Below the pieces are notes generated by a model. It saw nothing but the letters and a program-made list of their open reading frames with translations, did no database searches and was not told the origin of the DNA. The position numbers were made by a program, and so were the translations under genes. From a virus, in IMG/VR virus record IMGVR_UViG_3300021479_000013, positions 1 to 64,000 of that record: 64,000 nt of DNA. One strand, written 5' to 3'. Shown here in pieces: positions 3,007-44,742 of the stretch (its first letter is position 1; each line of letters opens with the position of its first letter).

Positions 3007-3042
3007 TTATCCTCTTTTCAATTTGAAGTGACAGCTTCACGC

Positions 3043-37528: not shown

Positions 37529-37548
37529 GTATCCTCCTGATGTGCCTA

Positions 37549-37665
37549 GCAGAAGGGCCTTGGACCTTTGGCCGTTCCCGGGTGTAGCCTAGTTACGATA
37601 CCCGTCTTGATGGGTCGGGGTGTCCCCTTACATCGACGGACGTAGCATTGGTCGTGCCCTTCTGC
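37549..37665 (-). ncRNA. Structured RNA closed by a perfect 10-bp stem
   Basis: GCAGAAGGGC and GCCCTTCTGC form the closing stem. Inside are further hairpins, including GGGG/CCCC and a TACGTC/GATGTA-like pair. There is no start codon with a ribosome site and no plausible frame across it. It lies downstream of promoter 37726-37754, whose product would be this RNA plus another stem (GAGAAAC/GTTTCTC, 37667-37700). A leader structure or a small phage RNA are both possible. Confidence 0.5.
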
Positions 37666-37725
37666 GAGAAACATCTAACCTGGGTGAGGCGGGTTTCTCA
37701 GGTCCGCCTCTCTCTCACTGAAAAC

Positions 37726-37754
37726 ATCTTACCACCGATCCAGTTTTCTGTCCA
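37726..37754 (-). promoter_or_regulatory. Operator-controlled promoter, copy 1
   Basis: Minus-strand TGGACA, 17-base spacer, TAAGAT. The operator AGTAC-GGAA-GTACT at 37756-37769 abuts the -35, and a second TAGTACTA lies at 37778-37785. It drives the structured RNA and the small genes downstream. Confidence 0.7.
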
Positions 37755-37755
37755 T

Positions 37756-37769
37756 AGTACGGAAGTACT
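37756..37769. promoter_or_regulatory. GTAC operator, copy 1
   Basis: Perfect dyad AGTAC-N4-GTACT with an extra TAGTACTA palindrome at 37778-37785, which overlaps the stop of the SWIM-like gene. Confidence 0.65.
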
Positions 37770-37782
37770 TTTCTGACTAGTA

Positions 37783-38232
37783 CTACCGCGCGACCGAAGC
37801 GCCGTAACGTCCGACCTGGGCCCGCACGAAGTGCAAATGTTTGCAGTTCAGTTTCTTGGCGAACTTGCTGAGGAGGAAGTTTTCGCAGGAGCAAATCCAG
37901 CCGCGAAAGTTAGGACGGCGGAAGTACGCGAACTTGTAAACCTTTCCCGACTCGCCCAAGACTTCGCCGTACACCTTCAAACTCGTGTCGGCGTTCTTGG
38001 GACGGGTCACTTTCAAAATTTCCATCACGCTGTCGGTGACGGTGGAGTGTTGAACCTCGTCGAGGGTAAAAGCGCCTTGATGGCCTTTCGCAGCGCCTGT
38101 TAGCATTTTCACGCTTACGGCTTCTCCGAAGTTCTCGTCAGCTTCAAAAACTTGGTCAACTGTCCCAGTGCCAGTCCAGTAGCTATTCGCAGAAGCAGGG
38201 ATAAAAACCTTCTCTCCAATTGTATATGCCAT
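37783..38232 (-). CDS. SWIM zinc-finger-like protein, 149 aa
   Basis: The C-terminal third has WICSCENFLLSKFAKKLNCKH, matching the CxC...CxH order of SWIM fingers, which bind DNA or protein partners. N-terminal part starts MAYTIGEKVFIPASA, a beta-barrel-like opening. The leader contains two hairpins (38246-38287). Function unknown. Confidence 0.68.
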   Translation of the reverse strand: MAYTIGEKVFIPASANSYWTGTGTVDQVFEADENFGEAVSVKMLTGAAKGHQGAFTLDEVQHSTVTDSVMEILKVTRPKNADTSLKVYGEVLGESGKVYKFAYFRRPNFRGWICSCENFLLSKFAKKLNCKHLHFVRAQVGRYGASVAR

Positions 38233-38245
38233 ATTAACTTCCTCC

Positions 38246-38287
38246 TTCGACCTAGAGTCGAACTAGAGAGGCAAGCCCTCGCTTGCC
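38246..38287 (-). promoter_or_regulatory. Tandem hairpins in the leader of the SWIM-like gene
   Basis: GGCAAGC/GCTTGCC with a 4-base loop is followed by TTCGAC/GTCGAA with a 5-base loop, right before the ribosome site of the gene at 38232. No T-run follows, so they look like leader structures or processing sites and not terminators. Confidence 0.45.
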
Positions 38288-38308
38288 CCCTTGATTCGCT
38301 TCTAAGAG

Positions 38309-38503
38309 TCACGATCTTGTAATTTCAAAATCTCGTACAAGATAAACACCATCAGGTGTAACAGTGGAATCGTCCAGGTGAACGGTGATAAGTAATTCGT
38401 TGCGGTCATCGTATGTAATGCTCCGAATGCATCCGATATAATTTCCGAGAATTATTCGAACACGATCTCCGACCACCCAAAATTTATCATCCCAGATTGA
38501 CAT
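38309..38503 (-). CDS. Small KOW/SH3-like protein, 64 aa
   Basis: FWVVGDRVRIILGNYIGCIRSI, then LLITVHLDDSTVTPDGVYLV: strand-rich sequence with the Gly/Asp pattern of KOW-type barrels. ATG 38503 has GAGGTAAC upstream. Function unknown. Confidence 0.6.
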   Translation of the reverse strand: MSIWDDKFWVVGDRVRIILGNYIGCIRSITYDDRNELLITVHLDDSTVTPDGVYLVRDFEITRS

Positions 38504-38530
38504 GTTACCTCCTCTAGAAAGATTCTCGTC

Positions 38531-38809
38531 TTACTCGTAATACGTGCCGCCGAGAGCACCTTTAACTCGAACCAGCCCGCAGTCCAACATCATCCGGTGA
38601 CGTTCACGGCGTGATGAATTAACTTTTTCGAGTTTCTTAGCCTGGTAAAAAACGGAAACTGCGTTGTTGTAACCGACCGAATAAGGATTGCCCTCGGAAA
38701 AGTGTACAAAGTTTTCTCCAACGGGAACACCGTCGAAGGCGCACATCAGGGACCAAAGAAGCTTGACTTCCTTCCGGGCTGCTATAACTGCCTGCTGGCT
38801 CTTTGTCAT
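38531..38809 (-). CDS. Hypothetical protein, paralogue of the gene at 40854, 92 aa
   Basis: First gene after operator promoter copy 2. ATG 38809 has GTGGAGGAAACACCG upstream. LLWSLMCAFDGVPVGENFV and the following NPYSVGYNNAV align with NLWNKMCAHDKIDPRSNFV and NPWTVDYNNAM of the other gene. Function unknown. Confidence 0.65.
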   Translation of the reverse strand: MTKSQQAVIAARKEVKLLWSLMCAFDGVPVGENFVHFSEGNPYSVGYNNAVSVFYQAKKLEKVNSSRRERHRMMLDCGLVRVKGALGGTYYE

Positions 38810-38831
38810 CGGTGTTTCCTCCACTGAATGA

Positions 38832-38860
38832 AGTGTCTCATACTTCTCGAAATACGTCAA
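38832..38860 (-). promoter_or_regulatory. Operator-controlled promoter, copy 2
   Basis: Minus-strand TTGACG, 17-base spacer, GACACT. Operator AGTAC-TTTG-GTACC at 38862-38875 abuts the -35. The leader contains CAGTGGAGGAA before ATG 38809. Confidence 0.7.
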
Positions 38861-38861
38861 T

Positions 38862-38875
38862 GGTACCAAAGTACT
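38862..38875. promoter_or_regulatory. GTAC operator, copy 2
   Basis: AGTAC-N4-GTACC dyad (one base off perfect symmetry), overlapping the start of transcription control for the gene at 38531-38809. Confidence 0.65.
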
Positions 38876-39086
38876 ACTTTAATCTGTTTCGATAGCGTCG
38901 CCTTAGACGAACTGGTAACACCGAAGTGGACTCTGAATTACCACCGATGCATTCTGCGATGGCATCTGCGATTGTTGAATCGTCGTCGAGAATTAGAGCG
39001 TGCCCAGATAGAGCATGCTGGTTGCCTTCGTTGTAAAAATTGTTGATCGCTTCCAGGATTTCAATCGCCCTTGCGAGTTTGCTCAT
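38874..39086 (-). CDS. Hypothetical protein, 70 aa
   Basis: Starts MSKLARAIEILEAINNFY, two helices with an acidic middle (DDDSTIADAIAE) and a basic end (RLRRRYRNRLK). The 3' end overlaps operator copy 2. Overlaps the upstream gene end by 26 bases. No family recognised. Confidence 0.58.
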   Translation of the reverse strand: MSKLARAIEILEAINNFYNEGNQHALSGHALILDDDSTIADAIAECIGGNSESTSVLPVRLRRRYRNRLK

Positions 39087-39246
39087 TTTCTGCCTCCGTC
39101 TTCCTAATCTGTGTGTACGTGATATCGAGAATTCGTTTTAAGGTCCCGTTGCCGCGAGCGCGAGCCCGCCTGTCGGGCTTTGTAGAGCAGTGTCCAGTGC
39201 AATATTTCTGGCCGCACGGTAATCGTGGAGTGCAAAAGTCGCTCAT
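39061..39246 (-). CDS. Small Cys/Arg-rich protein, 61 aa
   Basis: ATG 39246 with GGAGGAGACC upstream and ATGA overlap. CTPRLPCGQKYCTGHCS near the N-terminus has four cysteines and a His, a metal-binding candidate; the rest is basic. Function unknown. Confidence 0.58.
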   Translation of the reverse strand: MSDFCTPRLPCGQKYCTGHCSTKPDRRARARGNGTLKRILDITYTQIRKTEAENEQTRKGD

Positions 39247-39467
39247 GGTCTCCTCCAGGTGTAAGTGTGTGATGGCAGAGAGAGCAACATACTGCCGAGA
39301 TAACTTTGCTTGCAGTATCCCCACAAAGTGACATGTCCTGTCCTGATGGCTTCTAGCGTTTGATATCTCCTGAGGCCGAGCCCGAATAGATACCACGCGT
39401 TGCCTGCAGCTTGCGTTGGGTTGGCGCTGGCAATCTCCCTGACTTCGAACGGCGCTTTAATTTTCAT
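39243..39467 (-). CDS. Hypothetical protein, 74 aa
   Basis: ATG 39467 with GGTGGAGAGA upstream; the ATG overlaps the stop of the previous gene. Starts MKIKAPFEVREIASANP; soluble with an aromatic C-terminus. No family recognised. Confidence 0.58.
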   Translation of the reverse strand: MKIKAPFEVREIASANPTQAAGNAWYLFGLGLRRYQTLEAIRTGHVTLWGYCKQSYLGSMLLSLPSHTYTWRRP

Positions 39468-39604
39468 TCTCTCCACCCGTGTTCTTTCATTCGCTCGATA
39501 CACTGGTCGTATCTGGCCATCCTCGCGGCGTGCTTGCGGTCGGTGTGCTGTTGCCTTACGATGTAGGCCAGGAGGGCTACAATCGCGGTGAGTAAGTATA
39601 TCAC
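39464..39604 (-). CDS. Small membrane protein, 46 aa
   Basis: GTG start at 39604 with CAGGAGGCAGTC upstream. One hydrophobic helix at the N-terminus (MIYLLTAIVALLAYIV) and a basic cytoplasmic tail (RQQHTDRKHAARMARY). Overlaps both neighbours by 4 bases. Function unknown. Confidence 0.58.
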   Translation of the reverse strand: MIYLLTAIVALLAYIVRQQHTDRKHAARMARYDQCIERMKEHGWRE

Positions 39605-39786
39605 GACTGCCTCCTGGTTGCTTTCCAGGTGTAGAAAATTTTTGCGTGGGACTCGTATCCGTCCGGGTAGTTATCGGCGTACCAGACGGCGTACAACGTG
39701 GCGTTGCCTTCTGACAGCCCCTGCCTATCCACCGCGTATGCCGCCGCGTGCCGTAGAATAAATTCGCGAAGGTCTCTCTTACTCAC
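39601..39786 (-). CDS. Hypothetical protein, 61 aa
   Basis: Starts MSKRDLREFILRHAAAYAVDR; an amphipathic helix then a Tyr-rich part (LYAVWYADNYPDGY). ATG overlaps the previous stop region. No family recognised. Confidence 0.55.
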   Translation of the reverse strand: MSKRDLREFILRHAAAYAVDRQGLSEGNATLYAVWYADNYPDGYESHAKIFYTWKATRRQS

Positions 39787-39950
39787 GACTTCTCCAATAT
39801 AGCGTTTGTGTTAATCGGCGTTGTGGGCGGCAAAAGAATAAGGCCTTTGTTTATAGAGAACGCGATAGCATAGCGCTGCTCTTGAGTTAATCCCGCATCC
39901 CCTAAGTTGAGAAGTTCGTCCAGGATTCTAATTGCTTTCTCTTTGTACAT
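39783..39950 (-). CDS. Hypothetical protein, 55 aa
   Basis: First gene after operator promoter copy 3; ATG 39950 has GTGGAGGAAGAC upstream. Starts MYKEKAIRILDELLNLGDAG, helical N-terminus. ATGA overlap with the next gene. Function unknown. Confidence 0.6.
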   Translation of the reverse strand: MYKEKAIRILDELLNLGDAGLTQEQRYAIAFSINKGLILLPPTTPINTNAILEKS

Positions 39951-39969
39951 GTCTTCCTCCACTGTTAGA

Positions 39970-39998
39970 AGTGTACCGCGAACCCGAGTTTAATGCAA
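39970..39998 (-). promoter_or_regulatory. Operator-controlled promoter, copy 3
   Basis: Minus-strand TTGCAT, 17-base spacer, TACACT, with operator at 40000-40013 directly upstream of the -35 and TAGTACTA at 40023-40030. Confidence 0.7.
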
Positions 39999-39999
39999 T

Positions 40000-40013
40000 A
40001 GTACGGAAGTACC
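40000..40013. promoter_or_regulatory. GTAC operator, copy 3
   Basis: AGTAC-GGAA-GTACC on the plus strand; the second palindrome TAGTACTA at 40023-40030 overlaps the stop codon region of the papain-like gene. Confidence 0.65.
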
Positions 40014-40027
40014 GATCTTTGATAGTA

Positions 40028-40576
40028 CTAAAGCTGCGCCAGCTTGGCTGCGACCGCGCGCCTCTGGTATTCCTCCGCGTCAAACCTAGGACGGGTCTCG
40101 GCTGGCGCGACTACAGGTGTCCACACGTTGGGCGGCGGCATCAAGGACGCGGCTGGGACCTGTTTAGACGTCATCTTGACCTGGATAGCCACCCGCATCC
40201 TGGCGCGCGTCTTACTGCCTTGTACGTTGTCGTACACCACACCGTCAGTTAAGGCAAACGCGTGAGTCGTGCAGCAGAGGAAGAAACGGCCTTCCTTAGG
40301 TAGTCTATACATAAAGTGTTGGACCGTGGGACGCATATGCGAGTTTGTGAAAACCGATTTGTATTCTGAGACGATGCCCTCGGCCTTCAGGTCAGAGAGA
40401 ACCTGGTCGATCAGGATTATCTTAGTACCCTTACGGGAACGACGGCCTTTCGCCTTAAGTCTGGAGTGAATGTCCGCATAAGGCAGGCCGGTGGTATTGG
40501 CCAGTGCGATGACCGCGCAGTCGTTCGTCTCGCCTAGTATGCGGTCCTTGGTGACGCCGAGAGATGTCTTGAACAC
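40028..40576 (-). CDS. Papain-like cysteine peptidase-fold protein, 182 aa
   Basis: ETNDCAVIALANTTGLPYAD (Cys20) followed far downstream by CCTTHAFALTDGVVYDN (His105, Asp116) gives the Cys-His-Asp/Asn order of C39/papain-like folds. I choose the GTG start at 40576: it lies behind GTGGAGGAACACCAA and after promoter copy 4, while a frame opened at 40627 would start inside the -35 box. It may be a protease or an inactive relative. Confidence 0.65.
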   Translation of the reverse strand: MFKTSLGVTKDRILGETNDCAVIALANTTGLPYADIHSRLKAKGRRSRKGTKIILIDQVLSDLKAEGIVSEYKSVFTNSHMRPTVQHFMYRLPKEGRFFLCCTTHAFALTDGVVYDNVQGSKTRARMRVAIQVKMTSKQVPAASLMPPPNVWTPVVAPAETRPRFDAEEYQRRAVAAKLAQL

Positions 40577-40598
40577 TTGGTGTTCCTCCACTGGATAC

Positions 40599-40627
40599 AT
40601 GGTCTCATGGAACCGAAATTGGTGCAA
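40599..40627 (-). promoter_or_regulatory. Operator-controlled promoter, copy 4
   Basis: Minus-strand TTGCAC, 17-base spacer ending CATGA, GACCAT. Operator here is degenerate: TACTAGTACC at 40629-40638. The CAGTGGAGGAA leader is conserved. Confidence 0.65.
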
Positions 40628-40628
40628 T

Positions 40629-40638
40629 GGTACTAGTA
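40629..40638. promoter_or_regulatory. Degenerate GTAC operator, copy 4
   Basis: Plus-strand GGTACTAGTA; only one full GTAC half-site with an overlapping ACTAGT palindrome. Confidence 0.45.
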
Positions 40639-40662
40639 GACAATTCTTTGGCGACCGAATTG

Positions 40663-40854
40663 CTAGCGCCCTCGTGCCAGTGTAATCAGTCCGGCCTGGT
40701 CTAACATCTTGGCCGCGAAGTGCGGGTTAGCGCCCTGGGGATTCTCGACGCCGTCTATCTCGCCGTTCTCGCACGCGTCTGAGAACCAGCCTAGAATATT
40801 GTCGGCTGAGACCACGCGGTTATCGGGGTACAGGATGTGGAATGTCTCGGACAT
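40663..40854 (-). CDS. Hypothetical protein, 63 aa
   Basis: Starts MSETFHILYPDNRVVSADN and has GWFSDACENGEIDGV; acidic alpha-beta mix. One-base overlap with the upstream stop. No family recognised. Confidence 0.58.
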   Translation of the reverse strand: MSETFHILYPDNRVVSADNILGWFSDACENGEIDGVENPQGANPHFAAKMLDQAGLITLARGR

Positions 40855-41159
40855 TACCGACCTCCTGCTAGCTTAGCCATCGCGTTGTTGTAGTCTACGG
40901 TCCAAGGATTCGAGTCGGAGAAGACCACGAAATTACTCCTGGGGTCTATCTTGTCGTGGGCGCACATCTTGTTCCAGAGATTCTTTACCACGAATTTCTG
41001 GGGGTTGGCCAATTCTGCCTTGCCAGTCTCAGGGTTAACGGGGAGAATTGATGTCTCGCCGTTTGACGCGCGCAAGACTCGAAACTCAACGCCCACGTAT
41101 GTCTTGGCCATATTGTTTAGGTGCCGCCTGATTACCTGCTGCGATGCTCGTGCTCCCAT
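40854..41159 (-). CDS. Hypothetical protein, paralogue of the gene at 38531, 101 aa
   Basis: First gene after operator promoter copy 5; ATG 41159 has GTGGAGGAAACGACA upstream. The C-terminal half (NLWNKMCAHDKIDPRSNFVV, then NPWTVDYNNAMAKL) aligns with the 38531 protein. The N-terminal half is different. Function unknown. Confidence 0.65.
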   Translation of the reverse strand: MGARASQQVIRRHLNNMAKTYVGVEFRVLRASNGETSILPVNPETGKAELANPQKFVVKNLWNKMCAHDKIDPRSNFVVFSDSNPWTVDYNNAMAKLAGGR

Positions 41160-41181
41160 TGTCGTTTCCTCCACTGGATGC

Positions 41182-41210
41182 ATTCTCTCACAACCCCGGA
41201 AAGCGTGCAA
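41182..41210 (-). promoter_or_regulatory. Operator-controlled promoter, copy 5
   Basis: Minus-strand TTGCAC, 17-base spacer ending TTGTGA, GAGAAT. Operator 41212-41225 abuts the -35; TAGTACTA at 41235-41242. Confidence 0.7.
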
Positions 41211-41211
41211 T

Positions 41212-41225
41212 AGTACTTTGGTACC
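41212..41225. promoter_or_regulatory. GTAC operator, copy 5
   Basis: AGTAC-TTTG-GTACC, with TAGTACTA at 41235-41242 covering the stop of the Cys-rich gene upstream. Confidence 0.65.
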
Positions 41226-41239
41226 TATTTTCGGTAGTA

Positions 41240-41410
41240 CTACTTGCGCTCTTCCTCGACCTGCATTATGCAGCAAGGTCCGTACGTGTATCTTGTGACC
41301 GTGAAGACTTCCTGGCCTTCGATAGGCCTGGTGCAGCGAGCGCAACACTTCGCGAGGACACCTCTCAGGCCTTGGATGGTCTCGTGAACTAGCTTCGTTA
41401 GAGGTTTCAC
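41240..41410 (-). CDS. Small cysteine-rich protein, 56 aa
   Basis: GTG start at 41410 overlaps the previous stop (GTGA). KCCARCTRPIEG (21-32) and YGPCCIMQ (43-50) give two cysteine clusters, a likely zinc site. The stop codon lies in the second operator palindrome of copy 5. Function unknown. Confidence 0.55.
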   Translation of the reverse strand: MKPLTKLVHETIQGLRGVLAKCCARCTRPIEGQEVFTVTRYTYGPCCIMQVEEERK

Positions 41411-41631
41411 AGTCCCAACCCCGCGTTCAAGATTACTATCTCGGGGTCTGATAGGACGCGCGATGTGGGGATGCGGTCGGTTAACTTTTTGATTGCTCGA
41501 CGTGTGCGAATGTCGTGGAACAGCATATTTGATTCTGTGCGCAGCTGGTCGTTCTCGTGCATCCTGCTGAATGCCGCGTGAATCAAATTAACTTCAGCTT
41601 GAGATAGTTCTACGATGAATACGTCATTCAT
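41407..41631 (-). CDS. Hypothetical protein, 74 aa
   Basis: Starts MNDVFIVELSQAEVNLIHAA; helical and charged. Overlaps the upstream gene by 8 bases. No family recognised. Confidence 0.58.
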   Translation of the reverse strand: MNDVFIVELSQAEVNLIHAAFSRMHENDQLRTESNMLFHDIRTRRAIKKLTDRIPTSRVLSDPEIVILNAGLGL

Positions 41632-41833
41632 ATGTCACCGCCGACAGTTCAACATTGTACACCTTGCTGCCGTCGGACAGTGTCTCCTCTACAAGGTTAA
41701 GGCGGACGCTGTCAGAATTAATTGTGACGTAAGTCAAGTACTCGTTAACGGGGTGGTCCCGAAACTCTTTTAACATTCTGATAAGTTCATTAAGATTCAC
41801 AGCTGTTTCGGTATCGAGAATTTTCTTGCTCAT
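41624..41833 (-). CDS. Hypothetical protein, 69 aa
   Basis: ATG 41833 with AAAGGGATAACCAG upstream. Starts MSKKILDTETAVNLNELIRM and continues with strand-rich sequence (YLTYVTINSDSVRLNLVEE). No family recognised. Confidence 0.58.
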   Translation of the reverse strand: MSKKILDTETAVNLNELIRMLKEFRDHPVNEYLTYVTINSDSVRLNLVEETLSDGSKVYNVELSAVTYE

Positions 41834-41892
41834 CTGGTTATCCCTTTCCATATAACGATTGTCGCGAACTTGACCGCGAGTAATACGCACAC
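41830..41892 (-). CDS. Possible 20-residue hydrophobic peptide
   Basis: A GTG-started frame whose stop overlaps the next ATG (ATGA): hydrophobic MCVLLAVKFATIVIW plus a basic end. It fills the gap between two genes, but no good ribosome site is seen, so it may not be translated. Confidence 0.3.
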   Translation of the reverse strand: MCVLLAVKFATIVIWKGITR

Positions 41893-41896
41893 CAGC

Positions 41897-42193
41897 TTAG
41901 CCGTTGACATAAGCCACCACTTCCCAGCGTCCGGACTCCATGCGGTAGAATGATGCGGACAGCCAGAGACCCTCGCCAATCTCCTCGTGCAGGCGAGAAG
42001 TGTGATAATCGACGTAGTGAGTAAAGTGATTCTCGCCGACCTCGAAGCCGTGGTCGTGTAAAATCAGTTCTATGGTGAGCATAGGAACTGCCTGGTGGTA
42101 GATGAGACCGAGCTTGTGCAGGTCGGCGTTGACCGCTTGCTTCCTGGCTCGCAGGCTTGGAATCTTTGACTGGCAGTTGGTGCAGAGTGTCAT
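41897..42193 (-). CDS. Hypothetical zinc-binding protein, 98 aa
   Basis: First gene after operator promoter copy 6; ATG 42193 has GTGAGGACACGAAC upstream. MTLCTNCQSKIPS at the N-terminus has one CxxC. The HGFEVGENHFTHYVD stretch faintly recalls GVPVGENFVHFSE of the 38531 protein. Function unknown. Confidence 0.6.
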   Translation of the reverse strand: MTLCTNCQSKIPSLRARKQAVNADLHKLGLIYHQAVPMLTIELILHDHGFEVGENHFTHYVDYHTSRLHEEIGEGLWLSASFYRMESGRWEVVAYVNG

Positions 42194-42215
42194 GTTCGTG
42201 TCCTCACTGTTTTGG

Positions 42216-42244
42216 ATTCTCTCACAACCTAGGAATATAGTCAA
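42216..42244 (-). promoter_or_regulatory. Operator-controlled promoter, copy 6
   Basis: Minus-strand TTGACT, 17-base spacer ending TTGTGA, GAGAAT. The operator is weak: GGTAC-TTTA-GTTTA at 42246-42259. Confidence 0.65.
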
Positions 42245-42245
42245 T

Positions 42246-42259
42246 GGTACTTTAGTTTA
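42246..42259. promoter_or_regulatory. Degenerate GTAC operator, copy 6
   Basis: Plus-strand GGTAC followed after 4 bases by GTTTA: one good half-site and one decayed half-site, at the same place relative to the -35 as the others. Confidence 0.4.
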
Positions 42260-42718
42260 GCCCCACGCTATCGTCTTGTACCAGGCTGGTTCCGCTCCAG
42301 ACTTGGTCAGGATGCTCTGGTATGAGAGAGCGATATCAAGGACGGAGCGCTTCACGTCTACCGTGTAAGCGAATCGTACCTGGGACCTGGAGTCCATTCC
42401 GGCGAAGGTGCACTTGTCTGTAATGACCTGGGTGCTGCCGTCTTCATTCACGTGGATCGATTGAACTTTGAGCCACGAGTATCCGAAGTTTCCGCCGTTT
42501 GTCATAAGCAGGTCTTTGAACTTGTCACCGACCGCCAGCTGGCTAACTGACTTGCTCAGAAGACGTGTGAATAAACTTTGTGCTGCGGTGCCTCGCTTGG
42601 TTAGCGTTTCCTTCTGGCCGCGACACCGGAAACAGGTAGTGCCGTAAGACTGGCAGTATGAGTACTGGCCGGAACCGTCGCAACGTGAGCAGGTCTCGGA
42701 TTCGAATAGCAGGGACAT
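42257..42718 (-). CDS. DnaJ-type zinc-finger protein, 153 aa
   Basis: CSRCDGSGQYSYCQSYGTTC with CFRCRGQ has the CxxCxGxG-like pattern of a DnaJ zinc centre. The rest is strand-rich (FAYTVDVKRSVLDIA). The start overlaps the upstream stop by one base. It may be an adaptor protein; function unknown. Confidence 0.62.
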   Translation of the reverse strand: MSLLFESETCSRCDGSGQYSYCQSYGTTCFRCRGQKETLTKRGTAAQSLFTRLLSKSVSQLAVGDKFKDLLMTNGGNFGYSWLKVQSIHVNEDGSTQVITDKCTFAGMDSRSQVRFAYTVDVKRSVLDIALSYQSILTKSGAEPAWYKTIAWG

Positions 42719-42930
42719 TACTTGCCTCCATATAAGGATACCAACCCGATTGCAACCATATCGCTGAATACCTGGGTCATCACGTTGACCTTAAGATCTT
42801 GGACGGCCAGGTCCAGCTGGCGCTGCATTTCGTGGATGGACGCGGGGTGGGCGAGGGTACGAATATCCTTCGCGAGTAACTCCGCGTAAAGTGCGACTCG
42901 GACGACGCTGCTGATCTTTGTGTTTTCCAT
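42718..42930 (-). CDS. Helical hypothetical protein, 70 aa
   Basis: First gene after operator promoter copy 7. Starts MENTKISSVVRVALYAELLA; nearly all helix. The -10 box ends only about 6 bases before the ATG, so the message may be leaderless, unlike the other copies. Function unknown. Confidence 0.58.
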   Translation of the reverse strand: MENTKISSVVRVALYAELLAKDIRTLAHPASIHEMQRQLDLAVQDLKVNVMTQVFSDMVAIGLVSLYGGK

Positions 42931-42936
42931 GTTTGT

Positions 42937-42965
42937 ATTCTCTCACCGATCTAGATTTGTGTCCA
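42937..42965 (-). promoter_or_regulatory. Operator-controlled promoter, copy 7
   Basis: Minus-strand TGGACA, 17-base spacer ending GGTGA, GAGAAT. Operator 42967-42980 abuts the -35; a second CTAGTACT at 42989-42996. Confidence 0.7.
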
Positions 42966-42966
42966 T

Positions 42967-42980
42967 AGTACTTCGGTACC
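42967..42980. promoter_or_regulatory. GTAC operator, copy 7
   Basis: AGTAC-TTCG-GTACC; the further CTAGTACT at 42989-42996 covers the stop of the gene at 42989-43237. Confidence 0.65.
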
Positions 42981-42988
42981 GAATTTGT

Positions 42989-43237
42989 CTAGTACTTCGT
43001 TGCCTTCATGAATTCCTCGGCTGAGAGCATCCACGCCTCGCTGCCTGTGTCGTACCGTACGCTGATCGCTGGGACTGTGAAACGGCCCGATGTGACCGTG
43101 CCGGTTTGAAAGCATACGCCTAGGTCTTGGGTGACACGGTGTCGGACGCGGTCGTTTACCTTAATCTTGGTCGAGAGCGTTTGGTTGAACTGCGCGCCCT
43201 GGTTTGGTTCACCGAATAAAAGTGTGAATAGACTCAT
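42989..43237 (-). CDS. Hypothetical protein, 82 aa
   Basis: Starts MSLFTLLFGEPNQGAQFN and then reads as a small beta barrel (KVNDRVRHRVTQDLGVCF, TGTVTSGRFTVPAISVRYD), like the KOW-type proteins nearby. ATGA overlap with the upstream gene. Function unknown. Confidence 0.58.
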   Translation of the reverse strand: MSLFTLLFGEPNQGAQFNQTLSTKIKVNDRVRHRVTQDLGVCFQTGTVTSGRFTVPAISVRYDTGSEAWMLSAEEFMKATKY

Positions 43238-43446
43238 GACTTCCTCGCTTTCATATCTTGTGCTATCTTGCCTTCGTCGAGTCGCTTGCTCACTTCGAGC
43301 CTTAATACCGTTGTGACCAGTTTGCCGTCTTGCCAGCTCTCCTCGAATTCGCGGCAGGTGCGGCCTTGTTTGATCGCGTGTGTGACCAGCTGGGCTCGCA
43401 GTTCGTGGCCTCTAGGGCTGTTGGGGAATGTGAATGAGTCTGTCAT
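43234..43446 (-). CDS. Hypothetical protein, 70 aa
   Basis: Starts MTDSFTFPNSPRGHELRAQL; charged, helical (EFEESWQDGKLVTTVLRLE). ATGA overlaps at both ends. No family recognised. Confidence 0.58.
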   Translation of the reverse strand: MTDSFTFPNSPRGHELRAQLVTHAIKQGRTCREFEESWQDGKLVTTVLRLEVSKRLDEGKIAQDMKARKS

Positions 43447-43658
43447 TCTATCTCTCCTAGATTTACTGGCGTAAAGCTCTTATCGACCTTATAAAATTTC
43501 TCTCCGTTGCAAACCATGTCACGACGGCCTAGAAAACCGAGGTGCTGCCATGTCTTGCGATCACAGCAGGAACATTCAAATAGGCCCTTATAGCTCTTTC
43601 CTACGTAATGGGTCATTCGAACGTTTCGATTGCAGACCGTTGGTTCATGTGGTGTCAT
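43443..43658 (-). CDS. Small zinc-binding protein, 71 aa
   Basis: First gene after operator promoter copy 8. ATG 43658 has GTGAGGAACACC upstream. LFECSCCDRKTWQHLGF carries a cysteine cluster that may bind zinc with Cys9 and a later Cys. Function unknown. Confidence 0.6.
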   Translation of the reverse strand: MTPHEPTVCNRNVRMTHYVGKSYKGLFECSCCDRKTWQHLGFLGRRDMVCNGEKFYKVDKSFTPVNLGEIE

Positions 43659-43677
43659 GGTGTTCCTCACTGGTTGC

Positions 43678-43706
43678 ATCGTCTCATGCCTTGGGATTGG
43701 AGTCAA
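43678..43706 (-). promoter_or_regulatory. Operator-controlled promoter, copy 8
   Basis: Minus-strand TTGACT, 17-base spacer ending GCATGA, GACGAT. It lies within the 3' end of the repressor gene, whose stop is at 43684-43686. Confidence 0.7.
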
Positions 43707-43830
43707 TAGTACGAAAGTACTGTTCTATGATCGAGCGGACGATACAGGCAAGGGAGACCTGGCGCTGGGTTGCTAAGGACTGGAGTCTGACCAGCATGTC
43801 GGGCTTGAATTGGAGAAGGACTCGTTTCAT
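43684..43830 (-). CDS. Ribbon-helix-helix (Arc/CopG-like) repressor, 48 aa
   Basis: MKRVLLQFKPDMLVRLQSLA begins with the beta strand that reads DNA in this fold, followed by two helices (RQVSLACIVRSIIEQYF). I choose ATG 43830 because GAGGTGAG precedes it; a frame to 43872 would start upstream of the promoter -10. Its own promoter contains an AGTGATATCACT palindrome between -35 and -10, so autorepression is likely. Whether it also reads the AGTAC-N4-GTACT operators is unknown. Confidence 0.75.
   Translation of the reverse strand: MKRVLLQFKPDMLVRLQSLATQRQVSLACIVRSIIEQYFRTIDSNPKA
43708..43721. promoter_or_regulatory. GTAC operator, copy 8
   Basis: Perfect AGTAC-GAAA-GTACT dyad next to the -35 of copy 8, inside the repressor coding sequence. 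Confidence 0.65.
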
Positions 43831-43849: not shown

Positions 43850-43879
43850 AGCTTAGCACAGAGTGATATCACTTGTCAA
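43850..43879 (-). promoter_or_regulatory. Repressor promoter with internal operator
   Basis: Minus-strand TTGACA, 18-base spacer, TAAGCT. The spacer contains AGTGATATCACT (43862-43873), so a bound dimer would exclude RNA polymerase. Confidence 0.72.
43862..43873. promoter_or_regulatory. AGTGATATCACT operator, site 1
   Basis: Perfect 12-base palindrome between -35 and -10 of the repressor gene. Confidence 0.7.
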
Positions 43880-43891
43880 GAGCTAATTTGA

Positions 43892-43903
43892 AGTGATATC
43901 AGT
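43892..43903. promoter_or_regulatory. AGTGATATCAGT operator, site 2
   Basis: One base off the perfect palindrome, 30 bases from site 1, about three helical turns. Confidence 0.55.
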
Positions 43904-43913
43904 CCGTTTGACC

Positions 43914-43927
43914 AAGTGATATCACTT
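43914..43927. promoter_or_regulatory. AAGTGATATCACTT operator, site 3
   Basis: Longest perfect copy (14 bases), followed on the plus strand by TTGTCA, which with GATTGT 17 bases on could be a weak rightward promoter. Confidence 0.65.
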
Positions 43928-44065
43928 GTCAGGCCAAGTACGCGATAGGATTGTGTCATAGGTGTCATAAAACAGCCTTTTTCCTCTTAACTTGTTTACT
44001 ATGAACATATTAGAAGCATTTTTAGGCTAAAATCGCAATGCCCTACCTCTGCATCGAGAAATTGA

Positions 44066-44077
44066 AGTGATATCACT
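44066..44077. promoter_or_regulatory. AGTGATATCACT operator, site 4
   Basis: Perfect palindrome in the intergenic region, away from any promoter I can recognise. Confidence 0.6.
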
Positions 44078-44145
44078 CTCGTGTGGGTCAGGCTTCTAGT
44101 ATCTTATTAGACACAAAAAATGGTTCATAGATAGATACAAGAGCA

Positions 44146-44157
44146 AGTGATATCACT
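44146..44157. promoter_or_regulatory. AGTGATATCACT operator, site 5
   Basis: Perfect palindrome, preceded by CA and followed by CTG; 80 bases from site 4. Confidence 0.6.
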
Positions 44158-44742
44158 CTGTTTTCGCGAGCCTGAGGCCGCCCCGCATTTTCGTATGACA
44201 CCATTCTGTTAAGAGCTTTGTTATCTAAGGCCCCAAGCCAAAAAAAGGTGTCATACAGGTAAAATGACACCACCGCGTGACAGCGCTTCGACCAAAGTGT
44301 CCGAAATATACGACACTCTTCGGACATAGACAATAAGTGTCAACTCACTGATGTCCTCGGGCTCGCAATTAGGCCGATGCCACCGCTTGTACATCCAATG
44401 ACCCAAAGTTCGTGACCTCGCCTGGTGACAGTTCAATAAGAACTAACCCAAAACAAACGCCTGGCAGCACCTTCAAGGTCAACAAAGCAAATGATTTACA
44501 AGCACTGCCAACATATGGGCAGTAAGCCGAGATTGTCAGAAAATTCCTTTAAGCTCGATTTTCGCGCGATAAGCGCAATGTTTTCAACGATTTTCAGGTT
44601 CGGCCACACAAAAGCTTGCCCCAGCAAGCAAATGGCCAACATAAAAGGCTGTATTATCAACGAGTTAGCGATTCAAGCGCCACAATAGCGGTTTGGCGGA
44701 TAATAAACTATTAATGGCCACGTTGCAACGAAAGGACTTACA

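Follow-up and report, generated by a model that had tools for sequence, protein, structure and literature searches.

A cassette of operator and sigma70-type promoter recurs eight times in a viral genome and keeps its register above changing genes in other phages

Introduction

What acts on eight near-identical promoters crowded into one segment of a viral genome, and does it hold them off or turn them on? The question is raised by a 64,000-nt stretch of viral DNA (IMG/VR record IMGVR_UViG_3300021479_000013, positions 1 to 64,000), called the window in the following. A first-pass annotation had described eight copies of a promoter-operator-leader cassette in it, each heading a small gene set, and had read them as a phage-coded regulon under one common repressor. 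We examined the cassettes, their distribution among other phages and the candidates for the factor that binds them.

Results

Eight cassettes with one geometry

All eight copies were found where the annotation had placed them, on the minus strand between 37.72 and 43.72 kb of the window, each heading a small transcription unit. They share one plan, in which AGTAC-N4-GTAC[CT]A abuts a -35 element that is followed, after exactly 17 bp in 8/8 copies as had been claimed, by a TG-extended -10 element. Counted upward, the GTAC[CT]A motif of copies 1 to 8 starts at 37760, 38866, 40004, 40633, 41216, 42250, 42971 and 43712 (minus strand). The earlier grading of the operators into perfect, near-perfect and degenerate held as well: AGTAC-N4-GTACT is perfect in copy 1 (AGTACTTCCGTACT, 37756..37769) and copy 8 (AGTACTTTCGTACT, 43708..43721), has one mismatch in copies 2 (38862..38875), 3 (40000..40013), 5 (41212..41225) and 7 (42967..42980), and is reduced to the promoter-proximal half in copies 4 (40629..40642, GTACCA) and 6 (42246..42259). 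The -35 and -10 elements read TGGACA (37754-37749) and TAAGAT (37731-37726) in copy 1, with a predicted start at 37719, TTGACG and GACACT (38837-38832) in copy 2, TTGCAT and TACACT (39975-39970) in copy 3, TTGCAC and GACCAT (40604-40599) in copy 4, TTGCAC and GAGAAT (41187-41182) in copy 5, TTGACT and GAGAAT (42221-42216) in copy 6, TGGACA and GAGAAT (42942-42937) in copy 7, and TTGACT and GACGAT (43683-43678) in copy 8.

The composite cassette, not the operator alone, is decisive for the enrichment. With up to two mismatches allowed, the operator by itself was found 21 times in the window against 16.6 expected, which is no enrichment. A leave-one-out matrix of the whole cassette scored the eight copies at 18-57 bits and reached a maximum of about -2 elsewhere in the 82.4-kb record. 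When the matrix was built from other phages only, leaving out the window genome and its nearest relative G001, it returned exactly these eight from the window record (26-41 bits) and nothing further above 13 bits; the reversed sequence yielded zero cassettes. The spacing GTAC-N4-GTAC occurs eight times in the genome, compared to 0-3 times for other spacings. The copies thus have what is expected of a sigma70-type regulon, namely -35 and -10 elements at 17 bp with a common operator, in numbers above chance.

Persistence of the cassette over changing genes

The cassette was also found in nine relatives (G001-G009). Five of them were reached through the protein encoded at 37783-38232 and more through a pattern with the correct spacing; the pattern with off-by-one spacing, our negative control, hit unrelated contigs only. 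Whole-record scans gave 4 to 8 matches per genome in G001, G002, G003, G005, G006, G007, G008 and G009, some of those in G009, G006 and G007 being weak (13-16 bits), and four cassettes are present in the part of the G004 record that was read. The identity of the major capsid protein to that of the window ranges from 96% down to 24%, and the 44 first genes behind the cassettes belong to 33 families. Cassette sites persist while the genes behind them change. The annotation had named conserved genes with lost AGTAC-N4-GTACT sites as the outcome that would speak against it, and the search of related genomes with a motif model gave the reverse, sites kept and genes replaced.

A tyrosine integrase is encoded in 9/10 records, the exception being the window's own (82 kb compared to about 100), and ParA partition proteins in 0/10. 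Against isolated phages the block gave no DNA match and the cassette queries only weak, scattered ones; a prophage relative carrying the 37783 protein was not found in the genome collection. This protein (37783-38232, minus strand) has a CxC-x(n)-CxH zinc pattern resembling that of a SWIM domain and is highly conserved within the group in its C-terminal half. The protein at 40028-40576 (minus strand) shows an NDC...THAFA pattern reminiscent of papain-like or C39 peptidases and has a relative in phage Tunturi_3.

Anatomy and start codons

We compared 47 sites from nine phages, with the 18-bp-shifted variant not counted in. From 5' to 3' the order is an extra GTAC box (often present, 24 bp upstream of the proximal box), AGTAC-N4-GTAC[CT]A, the -35, 17 bp, the TG-extended -10 (GANNNT or TANNNT in the window group) and CA at the predicted start. 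Relative to the -35, GTAC is found at -6 in 44/47 sites, at -14 in 29/47 and at -30 in 11/47, and the gap between GTACYA and the -35 is zero in 44/47. In three variant sites, two in G005 and one in G002, the -35 is a consensus TTGACA and the boxes are displaced upstream by another 8 or 18 bp.

An ATG lies exactly 6 nt past the -10 in 16/47 sites and a GTG exactly 7 nt past it in 14/47, so that 30/47 cassettes have a start codon at or beside the transcript start, which is itself predicted, in sites that are related and hence not independent. An SD (Shine-Dalgarno)-led ATG, where one follows within ~25 nt downstream, usually shares the frame of the early start codon. Within the window, a GTG occurs 1 nt past the predicted start in copies 2, 3, 4, 5 and 8; it shares its frame with the SD-led ATG in copy 2 and is in frame in copies 3, 5 and 8. 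Copy 6 is SD-led, and in copy 7 the ATG of the gene at 42718-42930 coincides exactly with the predicted start at 42930, which would make the gene leaderless. What had been annotated as a leader in most copies is for the most part a start codon placed where transcription is predicted to begin; copy 7 has a plain, putatively leaderless ATG in place of the CAGTG leader. Leaderless genes have been predicted in a number of phyla, Acidobacteria included (PMC3160421).

A structured RNA behind copy 1

The claim that each cassette heads a small gene set does not extend to copy 1 (37760), which heads a conserved structured RNA, predicted to be transcribed from it, instead of genes. The predicted RNA of ~180 nt (37541-37719, minus strand) comprises a 5' hairpin with a ACCTGAGANACC loop, followed by a branched domain that has GCAG...CTGC and UCU...AGG as its closing helices. 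The z-score of the fold is -2.2 in the window and -4.4 and -5.3 in relatives, and in six phages (the window and loci L028, L062, L024, L027 and L025) the closing helix varies in sequence with pairing kept by compensatory changes. Rfam gave no match to this RNA or elsewhere in the region.

The cassette outside the group

A stricter pattern retrieved 34 stretches in about 25 viral contigs, and only 4 when one spacer base was added. Between the window group and G429, G430, G432 and G433, and also among these four, hardly any proteins are shared, the protein matches being distant and of polymerase, helicase or portal type. Exact sites number four in G429 (50% GC), five in G430 (61% GC) and one in G432, and a single weaker one is present in G433. 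The promoters of these phages are near consensus, TTGACA-17-TGGTATAAT. G434, which does have a few proteins in common with the group, carries one GTAC-N4-GTAC between two divergent extended -10 promoters (L296, about 3024-3029); evidence from G433 and G434 amounts to few sites each. The GTAC block of G429 comes after an array of CCGCAGAACAGCATTT repeats (L284, 4440-4640).

A ribbon-helix-helix protein with probable operators of its own

The head gene of the block (43684..43830, minus strand), whose 3' end overlaps cassette 8, encodes a 48-aa protein. AlphaFold2 predicted its structure with a mean pLDDT of 87, and its leading matches among PDB folds are, with few exceptions, ribbon-helix-helix (RHH) proteins (CopASO, ParG, CdbA, CopG, Arc); these matches agree in kind, but none is individually significant (none at E <0.1). 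Upstream lie five AGTGATATCACT-type palindromes (43862..44158), a probable RHH autoregulatory array, one of them placed between the -35 and -10 of the RHH gene promoter TTGACA-17-TAAGCT. Unlike GTAC, the palindromes before the RHH gene diversify between relatives, from AGTGATATCACT in the window to AACCTATATAGGTT in G001, AACTGATATCAGTT in G002 and the GCGTGCCCGG type in G005. The GTAC box is constant in all carriers, including phages without an RHH gene, which is missing in several GTAC-bearing relatives; going by this distribution, the RHH protein most likely pairs with the variable palindromes and not with GTAC. Two operator systems, GTAC and the RHH palindromes, coexist here, and the RHH protein would probably autoregulate the head promoter through its own fast-diversifying operators. 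TGTCATA-type repeats also occur near the array, which resembles a diversifying immunity region.

Both proteins that had been put forward as binders of the GTAC operator were thus rejected: the 43684 RHH protein is missing in several carriers, and GTAC is constant where its probable operators vary; the 17140 protein is missing in G006 and shows no conservation of its recognition helix. The S24 model and a profile of the acidobacterial LexA DNA-binding domain found nothing above the inclusion threshold in the phage sequences searched.

Comparison with Acidobacteriota

The acidobacterial phage Tunturi_3, a podovirus (PMC11924767), has structural proteins similar to those of the window (portal 35%); we looked for the cassette in it and did not find it. 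No prophage relative with the capsid protein was found in 396 acidobacterial genomes. Many of the acidobacterial lexA promoters examined (loci L188-L203) carry TTCGC-N6-TTCGC, likely the LexA box of Acidobacteriota, and none carries GTAC-N4-GTAC. TAGTAC-N4-GTACTA was found in 2 of 247 acidobacterial genomes, with one site each, fewer than in the reversed control, and the promoter-type search of 396 genomes gave one exact match, which has no -10. We therefore discarded a GTAC regulon in Acidobacteriota, where the motif is not enriched in the sampled genomes, and likewise acidobacterial host LexA, the acidobacterial host itself being unproven in both cases.

Discussion

We consider the eight cassettes to be sigma70-type early promoters of a soil phage of temperate lineage on which one common factor would act, likely as a repressor and more likely supplied by the host; as a whole, this explanation has in our view about an even chance of being right. 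We infer that the cassettes are transcribed. A single DNA-binding factor would read AGTAC-N4-GTACT beside the -35 in all of them and most likely block RNA polymerase, so that a block of small early genes, which are exchangeable, and with it a structured RNA would be kept off and then released together. Repression is the probable mode of action because the same operator abuts consensus-strength promoters in unrelated phages (G429, G430, G432), where no activator would be needed. Three sites of the relatives, with boxes displaced upstream by 8 or 18 bp from a consensus -35, also argue against the idea that the factor turns on weak early promoters as an activator docked next to sigma region 4. 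Such an activator is unlikely, yet several features would suit it: the zero gap in 44/47 sites, the promoters of this phage, which are weaker than consensus (GANNNT, TTGCA, TGGACA), the better conservation of the proximal half-site compared to the distal one, and the precedent of GIL01 gp6, a phage activator that binds at a site overlapping a -35 (PMC6182141). It is hardly credible that the repeats arose by recent duplication and have no role in regulation; nearly identical copies do occur in the close pair G000/G001, but the geometry is exact over different genes across phages whose major capsids are only 24% identical, and also in phages with almost no common proteins.

As to who supplies the repressing factor, the host is the better guess, because phages with almost no common proteins share the operator in the same register. 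The annotated view of a single repressor is supported by the dispersed near-identical promoters, by the one factor they imply and by the integrases; phage coding of that repressor is not, as the carriers share almost no proteins and no LexA/S24 protein was found in them. Immunity systems typically have dispersed operators of identical sequence, and a phage-encoded repressor or immunity protein, of which each lineage has its own version too divergent to detect, would fit both them and the integrases in 9/10 records. We nevertheless hold it to be possible at best, since no DNA-binding protein common to the carriers was found and immunity operators normally diversify, as the RHH operators do and GTAC does not. 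Host LexA, acting in SOS control, is one candidate for the factor. In cyanobacteria the LexA box reads AGTACWNWTGTACT (PMC3091678), which our operator fits, and in GIL01 early promoters are held by host LexA (PMC6182141). The acidobacterial LexA promoters examined use TTCGC-N6-TTCGC instead, which would count for an acidobacterial host, and no LexA domain was found in the phage sequences searched; on balance we regard LexA as doubtful. An undescribed regulator of uncultured soil bacteria, neither LexA nor a phage protein, that several unrelated phage lineages have taken over to switch their early genes in common is a tentative further possibility.

The annotation's statement that it knew no described family with this element has to be qualified for the operator alone, which is the published cyanobacterial LexA box (PMC3091678); that match is one of sequence only, to a consensus that is cyanobacterial and may not be the host's. 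MetJ-type systems have tandem boxes, and the GTAC boxes here similarly recur 8, often 24, bp from the -35-proximal box; a MetJ-like binder was not found, and the RHH proteins go with other operators. In Cluster K mycobacteriophages, SAS/ESAS elements likewise place a repeated motif and an inverted repeat before many small phage genes (PMC3203893). ESAS is an imperfect 17-bp inverted-repeat pair with a 4-13 bp spacer and a phage-dependent consensus, tied to the start-associated sequence (PMC3203893); judged by this description our cassette is of another kind, in that its operator directly adjoins a sigma70 promoter and does not vary among unrelated phages. GIL01, with host LexA, gp7 and gp6 (PMC6182141), resembles it in having a palindromic promoter box and, if our reading is right, a host regulator that holds early promoters, but has three promoters as compared to eight dispersed GTAC-box cassettes here, where we found no LexA homologue and no LexA-like homologue of gp6 in the phages.

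A promoter switch that stays in exact register over changing genes, in phages with hardly any common proteins, offers a way to reach a regulator of uncultured soil bacteria, and the cassette a marker for finding early, host-takeover genes of their phages. It can now be tested if phages have converged on a host regulator and what use they make of putatively leaderless early genes and of a new structured RNA.
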